Assembly: GCA_000238815.2 (NCBI GenBank)
Contig: AFXB01000009.1
Coordinates: 1 to 64,000 of the forward strand
Source of the DNA: SAR116 cluster alpha proteobacterium HIMB100
GTDB lineage: Bacteria; Pseudomonadota; Alphaproteobacteria; Puniceispirillales; Puniceispirillaceae
Length of the DNA: 64,000 nucleotides
Direction: 5' to 3'
Positions 2,530-21,319 of the stretch are shown here, in pieces. Every line of letters begins with the position of its first letter. The first letter of the stretch is position 1. The translations under genes and the position numbers were made by a program. The notes under the pieces were generated by a model. The model was not told where the DNA came from and made no database searches. It was given only the letters and a program-made list of their open reading frames with translations.

Positions 2530-3855
2530 ATGGCTGAGTTATCTGTGTGGCAGGCAACCGCCCGCAATGAGGTGGAAGCGAACAAGACATCTGCACCCCT
2601 GAAAGGGCAGGCAGATTATGAGATTGTGGTGGTCGGCGCCGGATTTACCGGCCTGAGCACAGCTGTGCATCTGGCGGAAAAAGGGACAAGTGTATGCGTG
2701 CTGGATGCCCACGATATTGGATGGGGGGCGTCAGGACGCGCAGGCGGTCAGGTTAATCCCCTGCTGCCTGTGGCCACACCAGATGAGCTGTTTTCCCGGC
2801 TGCCGCAACCCTTTGCTGAACGATTGGCGCGGCTTTCCATCGGATCTGCTGATTTTTTGTTTGGGCTGATCAGCCGCCATCAGATCAGATGTGAGGCCAG
2901 GCAGACAGGATGGCTGCGGGCCCATCATGGCCGTAAGGCCAGATATCAGGCTGAACAATCTGCTCAAAAATGGGCCGCATTTGGGGCTGAGATGCGTATC
3001 ATCGACGCAGAAACAACTGCGGCTTTGACCGGCACAACCACATACAGATCCGCAAGTTTAACGCCGTCTGGCGGGTTGGTTCATCCGCTGATGCTGGCGA
3101 TTGGCATGGCACAGGCCGCAAAAGGTTTAGGGGCACATATTTTCAGCTTCAGCCCGGTAAGACGCCTACAGCAAAAGGGGACAGGCTGGCAGGTGCATAC
3201 CAAAGATGGCAAGGTGAATTGCCGGGCCGTGATTTTTGCCACTAATGGGTATTCGGGCCTGTTTGATGAAGGAAATTGCAGTCTGCAAGGCCAGCTGAAA
3301 GCCAGTATTTTGCCCGCCGGGCCAATTCAGATCGCAACAGACCCCCTTGAAGACGAGCTAGCAAACAGCCTGTTACCAAACGGCCATTCCATTTCAGATT
3401 CGCGCCGGATGATTATGTATGCACGGCGTGAGCCAGATAACCGGTTTATCTTTGGCGGTATTGGCAGATACGGCCTGAATGGACACATATCTGGTTATGA
3501 CTGGCTGATCAAAGATGTGAGGCGTATTTTTCCGCAACTGCGCCATCAGGACTGGCCCTATAGGTGGTCAGGCCAGATTGCGCTGACCGATACACATCTG
3601 CCTCAGCTCATCGAACTGGCGCCTGGTGTGGTTGCTGGCTTAGGGTATAATGGGCGCGGTGTGGCCATGGCCCATGTGATGGGCAGTATCCTGGCTGATT
3701 ATGTGCAAGGGGCTGCCTCGGACAGCTTGCCTCTCCCGCTGCTGCCTGCCTGCCGGATGCCGTTCCGGCTGAGTAAACAATTCGGGATGGGCCCGTTTAT
3801 CTCTGTTGCCAGAGCCCTGGACTGGCTGGAGAGCCGCGGCCAGACCAGCACTTAA
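2530..3855 (+). CDS. FAD-dependent amine/amino-acid oxidoreductase (DAO family, PuuB/OrdL-like)
   Basis: The 441-aa protein has an N-terminal Rossmann motif (VVVGAGFTGLSTAVHLAEKG, about residues 33-52), the family signature GASGRAGGQVNP (about 66-77), and a C-terminal FAD-contact region LGYNGRGVAMAHVMG. This is the pattern of gamma-glutamylputrescine oxidase and related DAO-family enzymes that oxidise a C-N bond and release an aldehyde or imine. The substrate cannot be told; no polyamine or proline genes are adjacent. The ribosome site before 2530 is weak, which could mean coupling to the upstream 53-aa gene. Confidence 0.85.
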   Translation: MAELSVWQATARNEVEANKTSAPLKGQADYEIVVVGAGFTGLSTAVHLAEKGTSVCVLDAHDIGWGASGRAGGQVNPLLPVATPDELFSRLPQPFAERLARLSIGSADFLFGLISRHQIRCEARQTGWLRAHHGRKARYQAEQSAQKWAAFGAEMRIIDAETTAALTGTTTYRSASLTPSGGLVHPLMLAIGMAQAAKGLGAHIFSFSPVRRLQQKGTGWQVHTKDGKVNCRAVIFATNGYSGLFDEGNCSLQGQLKASILPAGPIQIATDPLEDELANSLLPNGHSISDSRRMIMYARREPDNRFIFGGIGRYGLNGHISGYDWLIKDVRRIFPQLRHQDWPYRWSGQIALTDTHLPQLIELAPGVVAGLGYNGRGVAMAHVMGSILADYVQGAASDSLPLPLLPACRMPFRLSKQFGMGPFISVARALDWLESRGQTST

Positions 3856-13623: not shown

Positions 13624-14250
13624 TTAACCGGTTATCTGGGTCAATAACAATACCGCGAACAGCAACATCACAAACGCGGTGGCAAAATCTATCATCTGCC
13701 AGGCCCGAACGCTGGTCATATAGCGGCTGAAGCGGCGCGCACCAAACCCCAACACAGAAAAAAAGAGTAAGCTGGCCACAGACGCCCCGGCGGTAAAAGC
13801 CAGCTTTTCTGTATCCTGATAAGGCACAGACAGGCTGCCTAACAACACTACTGTATCCAGATAAACATGCGGATTAGCAAAAGTCAGCACAGCCACAACT
13901 GATAATGTGCGCGGCAACGATACATGATCTTTTTCTGGTGCAGCTGTCTTATCGAGTGCGCTGGCCATACGCAGCCCGTCACGAAGCCGCAATATCCCAT
14001 ATCCTGCCAGCCACAGCGCCGCCAGCGCAAACAGCCAGGTGCCATACACATCAAACAGAGGAGCCAACAGCCGGCCCAAACCCAGCACGCCAAGACAAAT
14101 CAAAAGCATATCAGACAAGCCGCAAAACAAGACCACGGCAAACACATGCTGGTTCAGCAGCCCTTGTCTGATGACAAAGCTGTTCTGCGCCCCGATAGCC
14201 AGAATCAGGGACAGGCTGAGCGCAAAACCGGACAATGCCGCAGAAATCAT
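13624..14250 (-). CDS. LysE/ArgO family amino acid exporter
   Basis: The 208-aa inner-membrane protein has about six hydrophobic segments and the hallmark LAIGAQNSFVIRQGL at the N-terminus, plus FANPHVYLDTVVLLGS in the middle. Members export basic amino acids such as arginine or lysine. The upstream region contains inverted repeats shared with the divergent Lin0512 gene, so the two may be co-regulated. Arginine is the likely but untested substrate. Confidence 0.88.
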   Translation of the reverse strand: MISAALSGFALSLSLILAIGAQNSFVIRQGLLNQHVFAVVLFCGLSDMLLICLGVLGLGRLLAPLFDVYGTWLFALAALWLAGYGILRLRDGLRMASALDKTAAPEKDHVSLPRTLSVVAVLTFANPHVYLDTVVLLGSLSVPYQDTEKLAFTAGASVASLLFFSVLGFGARRFSRYMTSVRAWQMIDFATAFVMLLFAVLLLTQITG

Positions 14251-14288: not shown

Positions 14289-14342
14289 ATGACAGACCGA
14301 ATGTCATTTCGCAATTGCGTATCTGTCAAGCAGGGGCATAAT
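14289..14342 (+). promoter_or_regulatory. Promoter and operator-like repeats before the Lin0512 genes
   Basis: ATGACA-N7-TGTCAT (14289-14307) is followed by the perfect palindrome CGCAATTGCG (14310-14319). A possible -35 TTGCGT (14315-14320) overlaps the palindrome and a -10 CATAAT (14337-14342) lies 16 nt further on. A protein bound at the palindrome would block this promoter. The region is shared with the divergent exporter gene. Confidence 0.4.
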
Positions 14343-14387
14343 AGACAAATTGCGCGTATAAAGCACAAAAGAACAGGACAGAGAATC

Positions 14388-14780
14388 ATGGCAAAAAAAC
14401 GTGTCGCAATGGAGCTGGGGATGGGCACATCGCTGCGCCGGCAAGATTATACAAAAGCTGCCGTCAGGGCGTTACAAGACGCGCTGTGGCACAATTCTTT
14501 GACTATGGCAGATGCGTTTGGTTTTTCGCGTGAAGATATGATCGTTGAGGTTGATATCGCGGTGCAAAAACCTGAACAGGTGGATATTGAAACGGTCAAA
14601 GCTGTGTTGCCTTATGGCCAGCCCCATATCAGGGTTGTACATGGCGGGCTGGACATTGCCAAACCACCTAAGCCAGGAGGGGCGGCTGCGGATACGGATA
14701 AAACCGTCATCGCTAACGCCGCGGTAAATGTGTATTTCGACATGGAACCCGCACCAGCCAAAGCAGGAGATAAGATATGA
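14388..14780 (+). CDS. Lin0512 family protein, copy A (130 aa)
   Basis: Starts MAKKRVAMELGMGTSLRRQD. The signature E(L/M)G(M/T)G near the N-terminus, then DYTKAAVRALQDALWHNS, then GQPHIRVVHGGLDI mark the Lin0512 family, which has no established activity. The C-terminus carries an extra proline/alanine-rich tail after NAAVNVYFDM. It overlaps copy B by 4 bp (ATGA), so the two are translated together, probably as partners of one complex. The in-frame ATG at 14388 has GGACAGAGAATC upstream. Confidence 0.85.
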   Translation: MAKKRVAMELGMGTSLRRQDYTKAAVRALQDALWHNSLTMADAFGFSREDMIVEVDIAVQKPEQVDIETVKAVLPYGQPHIRVVHGGLDIAKPPKPGGAAADTDKTVIANAAVNVYFDMEPAPAKAGDKI

Positions 14781-15133
14781 AGCGCCTGATTCTGGAAATG
14801 GGTACAGGAAATGATCTGTATGGTGAGGATTATACCAAAGCCGCCAACCGGGCAGTACAAGATGCGCTGCATCACAGCTCGTTAGTATTGTTCAGGTCGC
14901 TGGATCTGCCGCATGAAGCGATGCAGGTCAATGTGACCATTGGCGTCCAAGAGCCTGATCAAGTTGATACAGATGCGGTTGCCGCTACCCTGCCGCGTGG
15001 CCAGGCAACGGTGAGCGTTGTAAAAGGCGGGCTAAATGTGGTGGATACAGAAAATGACACTGTATCTGTAATCGCCACAGCTGCGGTTGAAGCCTGTTAT
15101 GATATCCGGGCAGAAGACTGGCAGCTGAGCTGA
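14777..15133 (+). CDS. Lin0512 family protein, copy B (118 aa)
   Basis: A second family member, clearly paralogous to copy A: LILEMGTGNDLYGEDYTKAA against VAMELGMGTSLRRQDYTKAA, and VSVVKGGLNV against IRVVHGGLDI. Both chains keep EMGTG/ELGMG, DYTKAA and the GGL motif. The tandem, overlapping layout suggests a heteromer. The amidohydrolase gene starts 13 bp later, so all three form one operon. A role in purine metabolism is inferred from that neighbour and the nearby BMP transporter. Confidence 0.85.
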   Translation: MKRLILEMGTGNDLYGEDYTKAANRAVQDALHHSSLVLFRSLDLPHEAMQVNVTIGVQEPDQVDTDAVAATLPRGQATVSVVKGGLNVVDTENDTVSVIATAAVEACYDIRAEDWQLS

Positions 15134-15145
15134 TAAGGAGAGTTT

Positions 15146-16537
15146 ATGCACAAACAGTTGCTGACACATATTGACGTATTGGCCACCATGGATAATGGCG
15201 AGAGCCATGACCAAAATTCAGCCTGCGGACGCGAATTAACAGATGCGGCTATCCTGATAGTCGATAATGTCATTACCAAAGTCGGCCCCACAACTGTGCT
15301 TGAACAAGAGGCCGCAGATTGTGACGAAGTGCATAATCTGGCTGGTCATATCGTGATCCCTGGCCTGGTGAATACCCATCACCATCTGTTTCAGAATCTG
15401 ACCCGGGTTGTGCCAGATGCCCAAAATCACAGCCTGTTCGGGTGGTTGCAGACCTTATATCCGATCTGGAGCCATTTAACGCCAGATGATTTTTATGTTT
15501 CTGCCGCAACCGGGCTTGCCGAGCTGGCTTTAAGCGGATGTACCACATCATCAGATCATCAATATCTGTTTCCCAATGGCAGCCAGCTGGATGATTCGAT
15601 AAAAGCGGCTCAGGATATCGGCATCCGCTTTACGGCCACACGCGGGTCAATGAGCATTGGTGAGAGCAAAGGCGGGCTGCCGCCAGATCAACTGACTGAA
15701 GCCGAAGACAGTATCTTAGCTGATTGCCTGCGGCTGATTGATGCCTATCATGACAGCTCTGCGCAGGCTATGACGCAGATTGCCCTCGCGCCTTGCTCGC
15801 CATTTTCAGTCAGCACCGGACTGATGCGTGATACAGCTGAAATGGCCAGAGATAAAGGTGTGGGCCTGCACACGCATTTAGCAGAAAATGTTGAGGATAT
15901 TGATTATTCACTGGCTCAATTCGGGCTGCGGCCAGGTGATTATGCCCAAGAGCTTGGCTGGACCGGGGAACATGTCTGGCATGCCCATTGCGTGCAGCTG
16001 AATGATGATGAAATCAACCTGTTTGCCCGCACAAAAACAGGTGTCGCCCACTGCCCCTGTTCAAATATGCGGCTGGCCAGTGGCATTGCCCCGGTGCGCC
16101 AGATGATCGATGCTGGTGTGCCTGTCGGGCTGGGGGTCGACGGATCATCATCAAGTGACAGCGGTCATCTGATGAATGAAGCCCGCCAGGCCATGTTATT
16201 ACAACGCGTGTTAGGTGGTGCAGATAATCTGTCCGCCCGCCAGGCCCTGCGGCTGGCAACACGCGGCGGCTCAGAGGTGCTGAACCGGCATGATATTGGC
16301 CAGATTGCGCCTGGGTTCGGCGCGGATATGGCGATTTTCAACCGCAATGTTATTGAGCTGAGCGGAACCCAGACAGACCCGCTGGCAGGGCTGGTCTTCT
16401 GTGGGCCGGTAAAGCCGCGCCATGTCCTGATTAATGGCAAATGGGTGGTGCGTGAAGGCGTACTTACAACTCTGTCCCTGCCCGATTTGCTGGCACGGCA
16501 CGATACATGCGCAAAAGACCTGCAGAACCGCAGTTAA
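15146..16537 (+). CDS. 8-oxoguanine deaminase-like amidohydrolase (TRZ/ATZ family)
   Basis: The 463-aa metal-dependent amidohydrolase shows all metal ligands: His78 and His80 in NTHHHLFQNLTR, His244 with Glu247 in THLAEN, His281 in WHAHCV and Asp332 in GVDGSSSSD. The segment HHHLFQNLTR and the GVDGSSSSD end are those of 8-oxoguanine deaminases, which convert 8-oxoguanine to urate plus ammonia. Related TRZ/ATZ enzymes deaminate or dechlorinate triazines or guanine, so the substrate needs testing. AAGGAGAG lies 5 nt before the ATG. It is the third gene of the Lin0512 operon. Confidence 0.85.
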   Translation: MHKQLLTHIDVLATMDNGESHDQNSACGRELTDAAILIVDNVITKVGPTTVLEQEAADCDEVHNLAGHIVIPGLVNTHHHLFQNLTRVVPDAQNHSLFGWLQTLYPIWSHLTPDDFYVSAATGLAELALSGCTTSSDHQYLFPNGSQLDDSIKAAQDIGIRFTATRGSMSIGESKGGLPPDQLTEAEDSILADCLRLIDAYHDSSAQAMTQIALAPCSPFSVSTGLMRDTAEMARDKGVGLHTHLAENVEDIDYSLAQFGLRPGDYAQELGWTGEHVWHAHCVQLNDDEINLFARTKTGVAHCPCSNMRLASGIAPVRQMIDAGVPVGLGVDGSSSSDSGHLMNEARQAMLLQRVLGGADNLSARQALRLATRGGSEVLNRHDIGQIAPGFGADMAIFNRNVIELSGTQTDPLAGLVFCGPVKPRHVLINGKWVVREGVLTTLSLPDLLARHDTCAKDLQNRS

Positions 16538-16554
16538 CACAAATCAACAAAGAA

Positions 16555-16589
16555 GATAAAAAAAACAGGCCGCCCTTAAGACGGCCTGT
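16555..16589 (-). terminator. Rho-independent terminator of the BMP transporter operon
   Basis: On the minus strand AACAGGCCG and CGGCCTGTT form a 9-bp stem with a 9-nt loop, followed by eight T. It lies just after the substrate-binding protein gene. On the plus strand the hairpin has no T tract, so it mainly serves the minus-strand operon. Confidence 0.88.
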
Positions 16590-16617
16590 TCGGTATAAGG
16601 TTGGTCTTTGGCAAGGC

Positions 16618-17712
16618 TTAGTTCGGGATTTTGCCTTCTACGCCTTCGACATAGTAATTCATTGACCACAGGCCACCATCATCAAGCACTTCACCTGCTT
16701 TCAGAATCATGTTCCCGCCATTATCCTTCATCGGACCTTCAAAGATATTCAGGCTGCCGTTACCAATACCGTCACGAGCAGCGGCGGCAGCTTTCGCTAC
16801 GTCTGCTGGCATATTTTTGAATTCAGTCAGAACCAGGAAGTCATCACTAATGCCTTTCCAGGTGTTGCCTGCCCAATGATCCGGCCCGTCACCTGTTGAC
16901 CAGCTGCCATCCATCACCTTCTGGACCTGTTCAATATAATAAGGCCCCCAGTTATTCACTGAAGCAAACAGCTGTGCGTTCGGGGCAAATTCATGCATGT
17001 CTGATGACTGGCCAAAGCCTTTCACACCTGCTTTTTCAGCTGTCTGCAGCATCGCCGGGCTGTCTGTATGCTGAGCCAGCACATCAGCACCTTCAGCAAT
17101 CAGCACCTTTGCCGCATCTGATTCCTTGACCGGATCATACCAGCTGTTCACCCAGACGACCTTGATAGATGCATCTTTGTTCACTGAACGCAGACCACGG
17201 GCAAATGAATTGATGCCCTGAATCACTTCCGGAATCGGGAAGGCACCCAGATAACCGATTTTGTTTGATTTGGTGGTCAAACCAGCAACCACACCCTGAA
17301 CATAACGGCCTTCATAAAACCGGATATTGCCGGTGGCCACATTTGCCGCCCGCTTATAGCCGGTAATGTGATCAAAACGCACGTCCGGATATTCTTTTGC
17401 AACACGGATGGTTGGATCCATATAGCCAAATGACGTGGTAAAAATAACCTTATTTCCCTGTGCCGCCAATTCGCGAATCACACGGGCTGCATCCGGGCCT
17501 TCAGGCACATTTTCCACATAAGTGGTTTCAACCTTATCACCGAAATGGGCCTGCAATTGCTGGCGGCCAACTTCATGGGCGTAAGTCCAGCCATGATCAC
17601 CCGGATTGGTCAGATAAACAAAGCCAACCTTCAGCGCGTCAGCCTGTGCAGAGCCAAGCCCCAAGCTCATCAGGGCTGTGGCCAAGGCCAGTTTTGAGAG
17701 TAGTTTTTTCAT
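16618..17712 (-). CDS. BMP family ABC transporter substrate-binding protein
   Basis: The 364-aa periplasmic protein begins with a Sec signal (MKKLLSKLALATALMSLGLG, cleaved near SAQA) and the BMP/PnrA hallmark VGFVYLTNPGDHGWTYAHE, then SFGYMDP and RFDHITGYK. BMP proteins bind nucleosides or related purines. No lipobox is seen, so it is probably soluble. The start at 17712 has GGAAGGAG upstream. Unusually, it is the last gene of its operon, 31 bp after the permease stop. Confidence 0.93.
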   Translation of the reverse strand: MKKLLSKLALATALMSLGLGSAQADALKVGFVYLTNPGDHGWTYAHEVGRQQLQAHFGDKVETTYVENVPEGPDAARVIRELAAQGNKVIFTTSFGYMDPTIRVAKEYPDVRFDHITGYKRAANVATGNIRFYEGRYVQGVVAGLTTKSNKIGYLGAFPIPEVIQGINSFARGLRSVNKDASIKVVWVNSWYDPVKESDAAKVLIAEGADVLAQHTDSPAMLQTAEKAGVKGFGQSSDMHEFAPNAQLFASVNNWGPYYIEQVQKVMDGSWSTGDGPDHWAGNTWKGISDDFLVLTEFKNMPADVAKAAAAARDGIGNGSLNIFEGPMKDNGGNMILKAGEVLDDGGLWSMNYYVEGVEGKIPN

Positions 17713-17743
17713 GATCTTTTTCTCCTTCCTCATGAATGCAAAT

Positions 17744-18652
17744 TTACCGTGTTGGATGGAACACCCGGCCAAGATGTGCCGGCGCCCCGAGATAGTTGCG
17801 GCCACGGCTGGAAATAAACACCAGCACGAAAATCGTCGCCAGATAAGGCAACATAGACAAAAACTGTGGCGGTATGGTCCAGCCCTTGGCCTGGCCTGCC
17901 AGCTGCATGATCGTCACACCGCCAAATAAAATTGCCCCGGCCACCAGCCGCCACGGCCGCCAGGACGCAAACACAACCAAGGCCAGCGCAATCCAGCCGC
18001 GCCCGGCCGTCATCCCTTCGGCCCAATGCGGGGTCAGCACAAGCGGCAGATATGCACCGCCCAAACCCGCCATAAAACCGCCAAACAGAACCGCCCCAGT
18101 GCGGATCAGAAGAACAGGATAGCCCAAAGCGTGAGCGCTGTCATGATTAACCCCAACCGACCGCAAAATCAGGCCTGAGCGGGTTGCCGATAAAAACCAG
18201 GCCGTCAGCGCAACAAGAGCGATACAGCCATAAGCCATAATATCCAGCTGGAAGGCCACACCCAGAAGCGGAATTTGAGCCAGACCAGGAATGACCAAAG
18301 ACGGCAAACCGTCAATGGCCTGCCCCACCAGAGGTGCGCCCACAAGCCCTGACAGGCCAGTCCCAAAAATGGTCAGCGCCAGACCGGTCGCTACCTGATT
18401 CGTGGCCAGCCCCAATGCAAATAACGCAAAAACAGCAGCTGTCGCCATGCCGGCCAAACCGCCACCCAGAATACCTGCATATGGGCTGCCGGTCACAGAT
18501 GCCGCACCAAAAGCAGCGACCGCCCCCATCAGCATCATGCCTTCAACACCCAGATTCAACACACCGCTTTTTTCGGCAACCAGCTCGCCAGTTGCCGCCA
18601 GAATCAGTGGCACAGATGTAAGCAGTACCGTCAGCAGAAGTTCATCAATCAT
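17744..18652 (-). CDS. BMP-type ABC transporter permease (second)
   Basis: The 302-aa membrane protein with 8-10 hydrophobic segments has the BMP-permease motif EKSGVLNLGVEGMMLMGA near the N-terminus. This is the partner of the larger permease in nucleoside/simple sugar uptake systems such as NupPQ. It overlaps the preceding permease by 4 bp (ATGA). Start at 18652 (MIDELLLTVLL); a GTG at 18664 is possible. Confidence 0.92.
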   Translation of the reverse strand: MIDELLLTVLLTSVPLILAATGELVAEKSGVLNLGVEGMMLMGAVAAFGAASVTGSPYAGILGGGLAGMATAAVFALFALGLATNQVATGLALTIFGTGLSGLVGAPLVGQAIDGLPSLVIPGLAQIPLLGVAFQLDIMAYGCIALVALTAWFLSATRSGLILRSVGVNHDSAHALGYPVLLIRTGAVLFGGFMAGLGGAYLPLVLTPHWAEGMTAGRGWIALALVVFASWRPWRLVAGAILFGGVTIMQLAGQAKGWTIPPQFLSMLPYLATIFVLVFISSRGRNYLGAPAHLGRVFHPTR

Positions 18653-19758
18653 GATCCTGCCCACCTTTGTTGTGTGTTCTGGCCAGCCCGGCCAACCCAG
18701 ACCAGCTGGTAGCGTGTCAGCGTTTCACCCGCCAACAACAGAAATAAAAGTATACCTTTGAAAATACCGGTTACAACCTTGGGAATGGCCATTGAAATCT
18801 GGGCCGTATCCCCGCCCAGCTCTGCCAGCGCGACCACCAGCCCCGCCACAATCACCGCCAACGGATTCAGCCGCGCCAGAAACGCCACAATAATTGCCGT
18901 AAAGCCATATCCGAATGAGATATTCGGCTGCAGCTGGCCAATATTGGCAGAGACTTCGATCATGCCTGCCAGCCCGGCGAGCGCCCCTGACGCCAGCAAA
19001 ACCGCCACAGTCACCCGGTTCGGGCTGAATCCGGCAAAGGTCCCTGCACGCGGCGCATCGCCCATCAGCTTGACCTGGAAGCCGCCCAGCATGCGCGAGA
19101 GGACAATATAACCCGCCACCGCAATCAAAAGCGCGGCCGGCACGCCCCAATGCAACTGGCCAAGACGGCCAATAACAGGCAGATGCATCGAACTTATCAG
19201 GCCAGCATCAGGATAATAAGGGGTCAGGGGAAAGCCAAAAGACATGGGATCGCGCCAGGGCCCGCGCACAATCCAGTCAATCAGCAATGCGGCAACGTAA
19301 GTCAGCATTAAGGAAACCAAAATTTCATTGGTTCTAAACCTGACTTTGCAAACCGCCGGTATCGCCGCCCAGGCCGCCCCGCATGCCATCGCCGCAACGG
19401 CCATACCGGGAAGCAAAAACACAGATGTGGTGTCCGGAAAGGATAGTGCCAGCCCCCCTGCCCCAAGCGCACCTGCAATCAGCTGGCCTTCAGCACCGAT
19501 ATTCCAGATATTTGCCCGATAGCAGAACACCAAGCCTGTACCAATGATGATCAATGGACAGGCTTTCACCAGCAGGTTGCCAAACTGGTCAGGACGGGAC
19601 AGCGGCGCCACAAAAAATTCATAGAGAGCAGGCAGAGGCGCATAGCCAAGGGCGGCAAAAATTAACCCGCCTGCCAGCAATGTGACCAATACCGAAACCA
19701 GCGGCACGGCAAGTGTCACATAAACTGGAACAGCGGGTCGTGGCTGCAGAATAAACAT
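18649..19758 (-). CDS. BMP-type ABC transporter permease (first)
   Basis: The 369-aa polytopic protein has the motif NIWNIGAEGQLIAGALGA, where permeases of this class contact the ATPase. It begins MFILQPRPAVPVYV at 19758, one base after the ATPase stop region, so translation is coupled. It should form the channel with the second permease. Confidence 0.92.
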   Translation of the reverse strand: MFILQPRPAVPVYVTLAVPLVSVLVTLLAGGLIFAALGYAPLPALYEFFVAPLSRPDQFGNLLVKACPLIIIGTGLVFCYRANIWNIGAEGQLIAGALGAGGLALSFPDTTSVFLLPGMAVAAMACGAAWAAIPAVCKVRFRTNEILVSLMLTYVAALLIDWIVRGPWRDPMSFGFPLTPYYPDAGLISSMHLPVIGRLGQLHWGVPAALLIAVAGYIVLSRMLGGFQVKLMGDAPRAGTFAGFSPNRVTVAVLLASGALAGLAGMIEVSANIGQLQPNISFGYGFTAIIVAFLARLNPLAVIVAGLVVALAELGGDTAQISMAIPKVVTGIFKGILLFLLLAGETLTRYQLVWVGRAGQNTQQRWAGS

Positions 19759-19759
19759 A

Positions 19760-21319
19760 TCAGGCCACCCCCACAGATTGCGCTGCTGCGGTTGATTTCT
19801 GAACACCGCCCATCAATAAACCGACCGCCTGAGCAGACATATCTGTCGCATGTTGCGGAGCAGACAGACGCCCTTCAGACAGTACCGCAATACGGTTTGA
19901 GATGGCAAAAATCTCTTCCAAATCCTGAGAGATTACGATCACAGCTGAGCCAGAGGCAGCCAGTTCAATCATCGCCTGACGGATAAAGGTTGCGGCACCA
20001 ACATCAACGCCCCATGTGGGCTGTGCTACAATCAGCACACGCGGCTGTTTGATAATCTCTCTCCCGACCACGAATTTCTGCAGATTACCGCCGGACAAGG
20101 CAGAGGCCTGCGGATCAGCCAGCGGTTTGCGCACATCAAAAGTGGTGCTGATTTGCTGCGCCCGAGCCTGCAGCTTGCTTTGCTGAATAAAGCCGTTTGC
20201 AACCATACCCTCATCCTGATGGCTGGTCAGCAGCGCGTTCTGAGACAGGCTCATCGCTGGGACCGCGGCATGGCCGTTCCGCTCTTCAGGAATAAAGCAG
20301 ATTTCATGCTGGCGGCGCTGATGCGGGCCAAGCTGGCTGATATCTGTCCTTCCTGCCCAGATCAGGCTTGAATGCTGTGATCGCCATTCGCCAGATAAAG
20401 CGGCCATCAGTTCATCCTGGCCATTACCCGCAACACCTGCAATGCCCAGCACTTCTCCTGCATGAACGCTGAGCGTGATGTGATCAAGGGCAACCTCAAA
20501 CGGCCCAAAAGCAGGGCGGGAGAGCGCATTTACGCTGAACAGAACTTCGCCAGCTGAAAAGCCTGCACCAGTCTTAACCGCATCAACAGATGTGCCCACC
20601 ATTAATTCAGCCATCTGATGAGTTGTCTTATCCGCTGTATCAACTTCAGCGACTTTTTGCCCGCCACGCAGGATTGTTGCGCGGCTGGTCAGCTGTTTAA
20701 TCTCATCCAATTTATGCGAAATAAACAAAACCGCACAGCCAGATTCGGCCAAATGGCGCAAGACTTCAAACAGCTGGTCTGTTTCCTGCGGGGTGAGCAC
20801 TGAAGTCGGCTCATCCATAATCAGCAATGACGGGTCTTGCAGCAGGCAGCGCATAATCTCTACCCGTTGTTGCTGGCCAACTGACAAATCTGCAACCAGG
20901 CTGTCAGGATCAAGTGGAATACCGTAATCTGTGGAACGGGTGCGGATCAAGTCATTTAACTGGTCGCGCGCCAATCTCTGCGGCAGCGCCAGTTCTATAT
21001 TCTCTGCCACCGTCAGGCTTTCAAACAAAGAGAAATGCTGGAACACCATGCCAATGCCCATGGCCCTGGCCTGTTGCGGATTGGTTATCTGAACAGGCTG
21101 TCCCTGCCATTCAAATTGACCTGAGTCAGGCTGCAGAAGACCGTAAATCATCTTCACAAAAGTTGATTTTCCGGCCCCGTTTTCCCCCAGCAGCGCATGC
21201 AATTCACCGGCCCTGATGGTGAAATCGATATCATCATTGGCCACAAATTGACCGAATGATTTGCGGATGTGGCGGCCAGACAGCAGACTGCCGGTCTGTG
21301 AAGAAACAGAGCTGGTCAT
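19760..21319 (-). CDS. BMP-type ABC transporter ATP-binding protein (two ABC domains)
   Basis: The 519-aa protein carries two ABC cassettes. The first is complete: Walker A GENGAGKST (45-53), signature LSVGQQQRVEI, Walker B LLIMDEPTS. The second has a degenerate Walker A (GVAGNGQDEL) but keeps LSGGNLQKFVVGREI, as usual for sugar/nucleoside importers of this class. It is the first gene of the four-gene operon; GGAGG lies 14 nt before the ATG. Confidence 0.93.
   Translation of the reverse strand: MTSSVSSQTGSLLSGRHIRKSFGQFVANDDIDFTIRAGELHALLGENGAGKSTFVKMIYGLLQPDSGQFEWQGQPVQITNPQQARAMGIGMVFQHFSLFESLTVAENIELALPQRLARDQLNDLIRTRSTDYGIPLDPDSLVADLSVGQQQRVEIMRCLLQDPSLLIMDEPTSVLTPQETDQLFEVLRHLAESGCAVLFISHKLDEIKQLTSRATILRGGQKVAEVDTADKTTHQMAELMVGTSVDAVKTGAGFSAGEVLFSVNALSRPAFGPFEVALDHITLSVHAGEVLGIAGVAGNGQDELMAALSGEWRSQHSSLIWAGRTDISQLGPHQRRQHEICFIPEERNGHAAVPAMSLSQNALLTSHQDEGMVANGFIQQSKLQARAQQISTTFDVRKPLADPQASALSGGNLQKFVVGREIIKQPRVLIVAQPTWGVDVGAATFIRQAMIELAASGSAVIVISQDLEEIFAISNRIAVLSEGRLSAPQHATDMSAQAVGLLMGGVQKSTAAAQSVGVA

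Follow-up and report, generated by a model that had tools for sequence, protein, structure and literature searches.

The window analyzed here is a stretch of 64,000 nucleotides from the SAR116 cluster alphaproteobacterium HIMB100 (contig AFXB01000009.1, positions 1 to 64,000), lying on contig C9 of a 2.46-Mb genome in 10 contigs. It carries two diverged Lin0512 genes in tandem, termed A and B, followed by a gene for an 8-oxoguanine-deaminase-type amidohydrolase and, on the other strand, a BMP-type importer operon (Table 1). A first-pass annotation of this DNA had proposed that the two Lin0512 proteins form a two-subunit enzyme or a substrate-channel partner working with the deaminase. Comparison across genomes points elsewhere. 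We put at even chances a reading in which an old Lin0512 unit serving C2-sulfonate catabolism abuts an unrelated purine module.

Both window proteins belong to the Lin0512 family. A and B score above the Pfam (PF09585, 23.4 bits) and NCBIfam (TIGR02058, 56.85 bits) cut-offs, and each chain (130 and 118 residues, respectively) holds a single Lin0512 domain. The genes overlap by 4 bp (14777–14780), just as first annotated. To place them, we scanned a genome collection for relatives of B and kept the best 80 of at least 575 as named loci. A lies directly upstream of B, on the same strand, in all 80, although selection by resemblance to B favors pairs in this set. The overlap is 4 bp in 32 loci, 8 bp in 18 and 1 bp in 12 (starts were script-picked). 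We also built a tree of 97 sequences, which sampled 44 of 81 A proteins, 44 of 81 B proteins and 9 singletons from plus-strand matches only, with L133, L134, L138, L143, L145 and L035 left out. All 44 A proteins fall on one side of one branch, and all 44 B proteins likewise on one side of another (support 96/87 and 100/98, respectively). Both groups span Alpha-, Beta- and Gammaproteobacteria. The tree is unrooted, and its inner order is weak because the alignment has only 121 columns. Since the A/B split runs through three classes, the duplication seems to be older than the spread of the pair. A gene order kept in this way is commonly a sign of subunits produced together, and it is likely, judging from the gene arrangement, that A and B form a two-subunit complex. 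Genomics thus bears out the earlier view of two diverged paralogs as a two-gene unit. Lin0512 members of Listeria and Azospirillum, in contrast, are singletons beside other genes, with no second Lin0512 gene annotated in the stretches viewed.

AlphaFold2 monomer models of B and A (predicted local distance difference test scores of 91.3 and 87.1, respectively) both resemble the solved Lin0512 member 3c8l (Npun_R1471), which is annotated as of 'unknown function'. The match has Z 17.0 with a root-mean-square deviation of 2.0 over 110 aligned residues for B, and Z 17.1 with a deviation of 3.1 over 117 residues for A. The C-terminal domain of FtsZ is a far weaker match (Z up to 8.0 for B and 7.8 for A). 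We rejected an FtsZ identity for either protein, as only the region of this C-terminal domain aligns and no GTPase Pfam family matches. For B, the Foldseek list includes Rid proteins, chorismate mutase and IspF; the Rid chains have low template-modeling (TM) scores of about 0.36–0.40 and E values of 4.5e-3 and above. In these predicted models, the weaker matches show a common arrangement, not function. At the sequence level, B carries an N-D-L-Y-G-x-D-Y-T-K stretch that is invariant among 37 sequences, as are H33 and S34. Most A proteins read T-S-L-R at the place of this stretch, and many A proteins have E, Q or G instead of the lysine.

The pair tracks xsc across genomes. In a phylum sample of 398 genomes, xsc was present in 14 of the 15 that have a full pair, defined as two near-full Lin0512 matches (the exception, G199, has no above-cut-off xsc). 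The corresponding figures were 0 of 11 for other Lin0512 genomes, among which we counted G260 (one full and one 45-position match), and 13 of 372 for genomes without Lin0512 (13/383 combined). In this sample, at most three first-look candidates per genome were scored in the xsc and CobT scans. The same trend is seen within families. In family f16, xsc occurs in 12/12 pair genomes versus 3/14 others (p = 5e-5); in family f1, that of the window organism, it occurs in 22/27 versus 2/10 (p = 0.001). The totals of 26 f16 genomes and of 135 Alphaproteobacteria, the latter considered below, were read from a kinship-ordered list that stops after 20 unmatched genomes. Taking all 61 relatives, xsc was found in 24 of 30 with the pair versus 11 of 31 without it.

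A second line of evidence comes from gene order in Beta- and Gammaproteobacteria. Twelve of the 80 loci carry, ahead of the pair and on the same strand, a CobS-CobT-like AAA+/VWA gene pair whose CobT match ends 18–412 bp before A. Halomonadaceae, Zoogloeaceae, Gallionellaceae and Comamonadaceae are among the families represented. The 12 stretches contain xsc in 8 cases, pta in 5, and at least one of xsc, pta, tauX and tauY in 11; the remaining one, L083, is cut off by the contig end shortly upstream of CobS. Three further loci (L103, L107 and L108) have TauX and TauY beside the pair. The names TauX and TauY were assigned where a SnoaL_2 protein adjoins a DAO flavoenzyme with a GntR-aminotransferase regulator nearby; we take TauX to be SnoaL-like. 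Of the 13 pair genomes of the Beta/Gamma-type set that were searched, 10 gave a TauY score >800 bits. CobST-LinAB in these classes is surrounded by Xsc, Pta, TauE, TauX/TauY and the GntR-aminotransferase regulator, components it shares with taurine dissimilation clusters, which the accessible portion of a TauR regulon survey gives as tauR, tauXY or tpa, xsc, pta and tauE (PMC5320631). That portion names neither CobS/CobT nor Lin0512 A/B. In the window genome, by contrast, taurine cluster genes are not adjacent to the pair. A literature search of partial coverage on CobST with taurine or xsc did not find the link.

The CobS-CobT-like proteins differ from those of the aerobic cobaltochelatase CobNST. 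At L105, both CobS (526.8 bits, cut-off 558.55) and the C-terminal part of CobT (290 bits, cut-off 759.05) fall below the cut-offs. Just 3 of the 12 CobST-LinAB genomes have a CobN above its cut-off, while 2 have one below it and 7 have no match, and a CobNST assignment was not borne out. With CobN mostly absent, CobST in most of these genomes is hardly there for cobalamin. We also searched sets chosen from pair genomes plus some others (35 genomes for xsc, 59 for CobT and 80 for TauY). CobT matched in 58 of 59, the exception being Halomonas urumqiensis (G474). In Alphaproteobacteria CobT is uninformative, because 129 of the 135 sampled genomes carry it. Outside this class, 6 of the 263 sampled genomes carry CobT, and exactly these 6 carry xsc; CobT is within 5 kb of xsc in 4 of them. 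In another six genomes, CobST and the pair are not adjacent; here too, CobT lies 2.7–4.3 kb from xsc (Halomonas G471 and G472; Cobetia G473; G475; G476; and G478). In G476, xsc and the pair apparently share a contig, with about 14 kb between them.

A number of observations weigh against a sulfonate role for the pair. No Lin0512 match was found in the six non-alphaproteobacterial sample genomes with xsc and CobT; the CobST-xsc link therefore stands without the pair, and neither needs it. TauY at E ≤ 1e-60 was found in 0 of 37 SAR116-order genomes, window organism included, and on this ground we rejected a TauXY accessory role as a general explanation for SAR116. In the window genome, xsc and the pair occupy different contigs (C8 and C9, respectively), and xsc lies within the fetched stretch in none of the alphaproteobacteria-titled loci among the 80. 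Six of the 30 pair-bearing relatives have no xsc above the cut-off. Likewise, 8 of the 35 searched genomes have no above-cut-off xsc, with lower-scoring pieces in 3 of these; G486 (Kiloniellaceae) and G487 (Pelagibius) have the pair and TauY and no above-cut-off xsc. The alphaproteobacterial neighbors of the pair are very mixed, and include DAO flavoenzymes, Ldh_2, cupins, PALP, aldo/keto reductase, EamA and substrate-binding proteins (the tally covers 78 of 112 operon-like neighbors and 25 of 47 families, with clusters c3 (EamA), c7, c9, c10 and the deaminase set aside). The p values given above are from Fisher tests, which ignore phylogeny, and incomplete genomes are included. Joint presence of the pair and xsc may reflect lifestyle. 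Co-occurrence is all that ties the pair to sulfonates in Alphaproteobacteria, the window among them. Within the pair itself, some A proteins (e.g. L071, L074, L076 and L082) retain a B-like T-D-L-x-G, so a division into a ligand-binding B and a diverged A does not hold throughout. Linkage to the deaminase, conserved within the genus (below), counts on the same side.

The genes beside the pair are well read, from their sequences, as a module for purine import and deamination. The deaminase (463 residues) begins with an ATG 12 intervening bases after B; the tight spacing first annotated stands, while its figure of 13 bp does not. Its score is 126 bits above the NF006055 '8-oxoguanine deaminase' cut-off (532), which was passed in 0 of 14 control genomes. 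It aligns with 3hpa and 7ww2 over nearly its full length, and THHH, HTH, HAH and VDGS motifs, presumably metal ligands, align as expected of an amidohydrolase (HxH, two further His and an Asp). The window enzyme thus resembles the group comprising 8-oxoguanine deaminase, AtzB and N2,N2-dimethylguanine hydrolase, in agreement with the first-pass annotation. One report shows relatives within this group acting on different substrates, namely 8-oxoguanine, guanine or N2,N2-dimethylguanine (PMC13054789); the substrate of the window enzyme is accordingly a predicted one. The BMP operon (16618–21319) is complete, with a PnrA-like binding protein, two BPD_transp_2 permeases and a double ATPase, the full four-gene set of BMP/PnrA nucleoside-type ABC importers. 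All four proteins score below the cut-offs of the NCBIfam putative 'B6' importer models. As had been described, the operon converges on the block; 80 bases separate it from the deaminase gene.

Similar groupings occur in other genomes. In G014 (L170:3874-14824), xdhABC-like genes, the deaminase and a complete BMP importer lie side by side in a compact purine-use cluster, and a search of this genome for Lin0512 gave no match. In G001, of the window's genus (g1), an XdhB gene flanked by open reading frames (ORFs) labeled XdhA and XdhC sits between importer and deaminase; the window genome has its best XdhB match on contig C10. The deaminase is above cut-off in 45 of 57 searched genomes (56 with Lin0512 or of genus g1, plus G014). 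We fetched 18 deaminase regions outside genus g1, and these contain XdhB (58–68% identity) in 7 cases, a complete BMP operon in 2 and a LinA/LinB match in none. Because deaminase, xanthine dehydrogenase (XDH) and BMP genes are grouped elsewhere without Lin0512, purine import and deamination needs no Lin0512. The gene groupings in G014 and G001 support the earlier idea that BMP uptake and ring deamination make up a purine module.

What is confined to the genus is the link between this module and the pair. The pair adjoins the deaminase in all seven pair-bearing genus-g1 genomes (G000, G001, G002, G003, G005, G006 and G007); the G005 contig ends inside the deaminase, and this genome was counted as the seventh adjacency, outside the six above cut-off. 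An eighth genome searched, G004 (64% complete), gave no Lin0512 match. Within the genus, this linkage is non-random. A function read from an operon conserved in one genus only can mislead. Among the 38 other Lin0512 genomes with an above-cut-off deaminase, none has the adjacency: the deaminase is on another contig or >350 kb off, although many of these genomes are drafts, so that a contig break could hide an adjacency. The three adjacencies among the 80 named loci are genus-g1 genomes already counted. The pair is also present without a deaminase match, for example in G011, G021 and G107. Among 20 stretches viewed, the only one besides those of the genus to have a BMP operon near the pair is that of G009, 3.6 kb away with three other ORFs between. 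In G030, of the same genus as G009, the corresponding flank of the pair showed no BMP match over about 19 kb. The first-pass annotation had itself called for this neighborhood comparison, and had held that its proposal would fail if Lin0512 genes elsewhere showed no linkage to purine deaminases or BMP transporters; this is largely what we found. On linkage (0/38, G014 without Lin0512 and the 18 deaminase regions), we rejected the purine partnership of the pair.

Several other explanations were weighed against these data. That the deaminase has A and B as an additional subunit pair or as a substrate-channel partner, with substrate supplied through the BMP importer, would fit the 12-base gap, the shared strand, the seven-of-seven conservation in the genus and the importer near the pair in G009. 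But the same idea has to accommodate the 38 genomes without adjacency, the Lin0512-free cluster of G014, pairs in genomes without a deaminase match and the empty 19 kb of G030. In addition, the solved deaminase relatives 3hpa, 7ww2, 8is4 and 8is5 have no Lin0512-like chain, as 3c8l was the only Lin0512 structure found. We regard this partnership as improbable. A milder version, in which the pair keeps its ancestral role but has recently been recruited, by co-transcription, to serve purine use as well, draws on the tight, operon-like spacing conserved in the genus. It seems no less improbable, given that the end branches of the window A and B are short (0.04 and 0.077) and that the proteins show nothing marking a changed role. 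Least credible of all is the idea that A and B represent the AtzD/barbiturase 'Toblerone' fold in dispersed form, as a Ser-Lys ring-opening amidase built from separate subunits and acting on a purine product. AtzD has three Ser-Lys dyads and reportedly derives from joined YjgF-type monomers (PMC3758960), an origin that lends the idea some appeal, as do K21, S34 and H33, invariant in the 37 B sequences. Yet the lysine is replaced in many A proteins, nothing outside genus g1 suggests a ring-amide substrate, and AtzD is not among the listed fold matches of the A and B models, an absence that excludes nothing. The identity was suggested by fold and then rejected as unsupported, the window proteins being single-domain chains rather than one three-unit chain.

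The serious rival is a general, Rid-like role in metabolite repair, in which A and B would handle imines or enamines from many amine and amino acid routes. The co-occurrence with xsc would then merely mark osmolyte-eating heterotrophs. The very mixed neighbors of the pair would be explained, as would the singletons beside other genes in Listeria and Azospirillum, and the fold matches of B include Rid proteins, albeit with low TM-scores. On the other hand, no Rid Pfam family matches A or B at E ≤ 1, the tie to CobST and tau genes recurs across several Beta- and Gammaproteobacterial lineages, and xsc separates full-pair genomes (14/15) from Lin0512 genomes without a full pair (0/11). We consider a repair role possible, though clearly short of even chances.

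The reading we prefer, an old sulfonate unit next to a purine module, may be sketched as follows. One module would be the two-gene Lin0512 unit, with A and B both of the chorismate-mutase/Rid/FtsZ-C-terminal fold type. Translational coupling would yield the two proteins in fixed ratio, and they would probably form a mixed oligomer. The invariant loop of B is the best candidate for a ligand site, which would have drifted in most A lineages. The unit most likely acts in C2-sulfonate catabolism, that is, in the use of taurine or isethionate via sulfoacetaldehyde and Xsc; possible activities are those of a small hydrolase or tautomerase, or of an imine- or aldehyde-handling protein. The CobS-CobT-like AAA+/VWA proteins, whose genes immediately precede the unit in Beta- and Gammaproteobacteria, probably serve it there. 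Other MoxR/VWA pairs provide the model here, and by analogy CobS-CobT would drive or load the unit or a partner. The other module would comprise the BMP importer and the 8-oxoguanine/guanine-type deaminase, with XDH encoded at G000:C10, and would function in purine salvage or degradation. The two would have become neighbors in this SAR116 genus by accident. Gene order, families, predicted fold, tree, linkage and co-occurrence are what the data show; from these we infer the A/B complex, its chemistry, the CobST partnership and, for the window organism, the sulfonate role.

A more specific proposal is that A and B make up a two-subunit enzyme, remodeled or metal-loaded by a CobS-CobT-like motor, that catalyzes an undescribed step in taurine or sulfoacetaldehyde metabolism. 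The motor would be dedicated, and mostly without CobN, in Beta- and Gammaproteobacteria, and would be the cell's own CobST in Alphaproteobacteria. We hold this version only tentatively and think it rather doubtful. Still, one branch of Lin0512 can now be seen as a conserved A/B pair that tracks the breakdown of C2 sulfonates and that several lineages encode behind an AAA+/VWA gene pair, mostly with no CobN, and a family of unknown function thereby becomes a directly testable question. A literature search found no paper naming Lin0512 or 3c8l/Npun_R1471; it covered few subscription papers, and this negative carries little weight. Seawater is rich in taurine and related compounds, and the window organism is a SAR116 bacterium.

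Table 1. Genes of the Lin0512 region of the window, with the matches used to name them
Gene product	Position	Strand	Evidence and remarks
LysE-type exporter, divergent from A	13624..14250	-	PF01810 104 bits; syntenic in 5 genus-g1 loci
Lin0512 paralog A	14388..14780	+	ATG at 14388; PF09585 122.0 bits, TIGR02058 71.6 bits; A side of tree
Lin0512 paralog B	14777..15133	+	PF09585 122.8 bits, TIGR02058 66.4 bits; B side of tree
8-oxoguanine-deaminase-type amidohydrolase	15146..16537	+	NF006055 657.7 bits; PDB 3hpa, 7ww2 at E ~1e-170
BMP/PnrA-like substrate-binding protein	16618..17712	-	PF02608 168.8 bits; start picked by ORF inspection
BMP-system permease	17744..18664	-	PF02653 96.2 bits
BMP-system permease	18649..19806	-	PF02653 121.5 bits
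BMP-system double ATPase	19760..21319	-	PF00005, two stretches, 165.6 bits

The LysE-type exporter gene upstream of A is kept within the genus and was not read as part of the A/B unit. Some other Lin0512 loci have unusual arrangements. One SAR116 genome, G015, has a third, singleton-like Lin0512 gene in addition to the pair (L035:1565-1897), and in Listeria monocytogenes a single Lin0512 gene lies 6 bp after a helix-turn-helix gene (L160:7524-8348). In G009, of genus g3 (L051:8889-11173), a reading named by eye as an HpcH/HpaI-type aldolase overlaps the end of B, and another, named likewise as a HAD-type dehalogenase, lies about 20 bp before A.

Further observations concern the taurine genes. 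CobS-CobT-like genes are found in Beta- and Gammaproteobacterial xsc/taurine clusters at L105:4805-7602, L187:12947-15744, L190:4679-7638, L191:5585-8290 and similar places, and many of these genomes have no CobN. The DAO gene beside the pair in L080 and L111 was considered as TauY and rejected, its identity being only 28–29%. The window itself has a coding stretch for a DAO-type flavoenzyme (2596–3741) with about 28% identity to TauY. Three tested 'xsc' neighbors of the Litoreibacter type proved to be acetolactate synthase, sequence cluster c2 having mixed both. Finally, a 671-residue 'unknown' ORF family (cluster c43) was dismissed as antisense frames, overlapping xsc on the other strand where checked (L105 and, from coordinates, L183 and L197); ORFs of >670 residues lie opposite xsc at L105:10184-12199 and L183:12431-14497.

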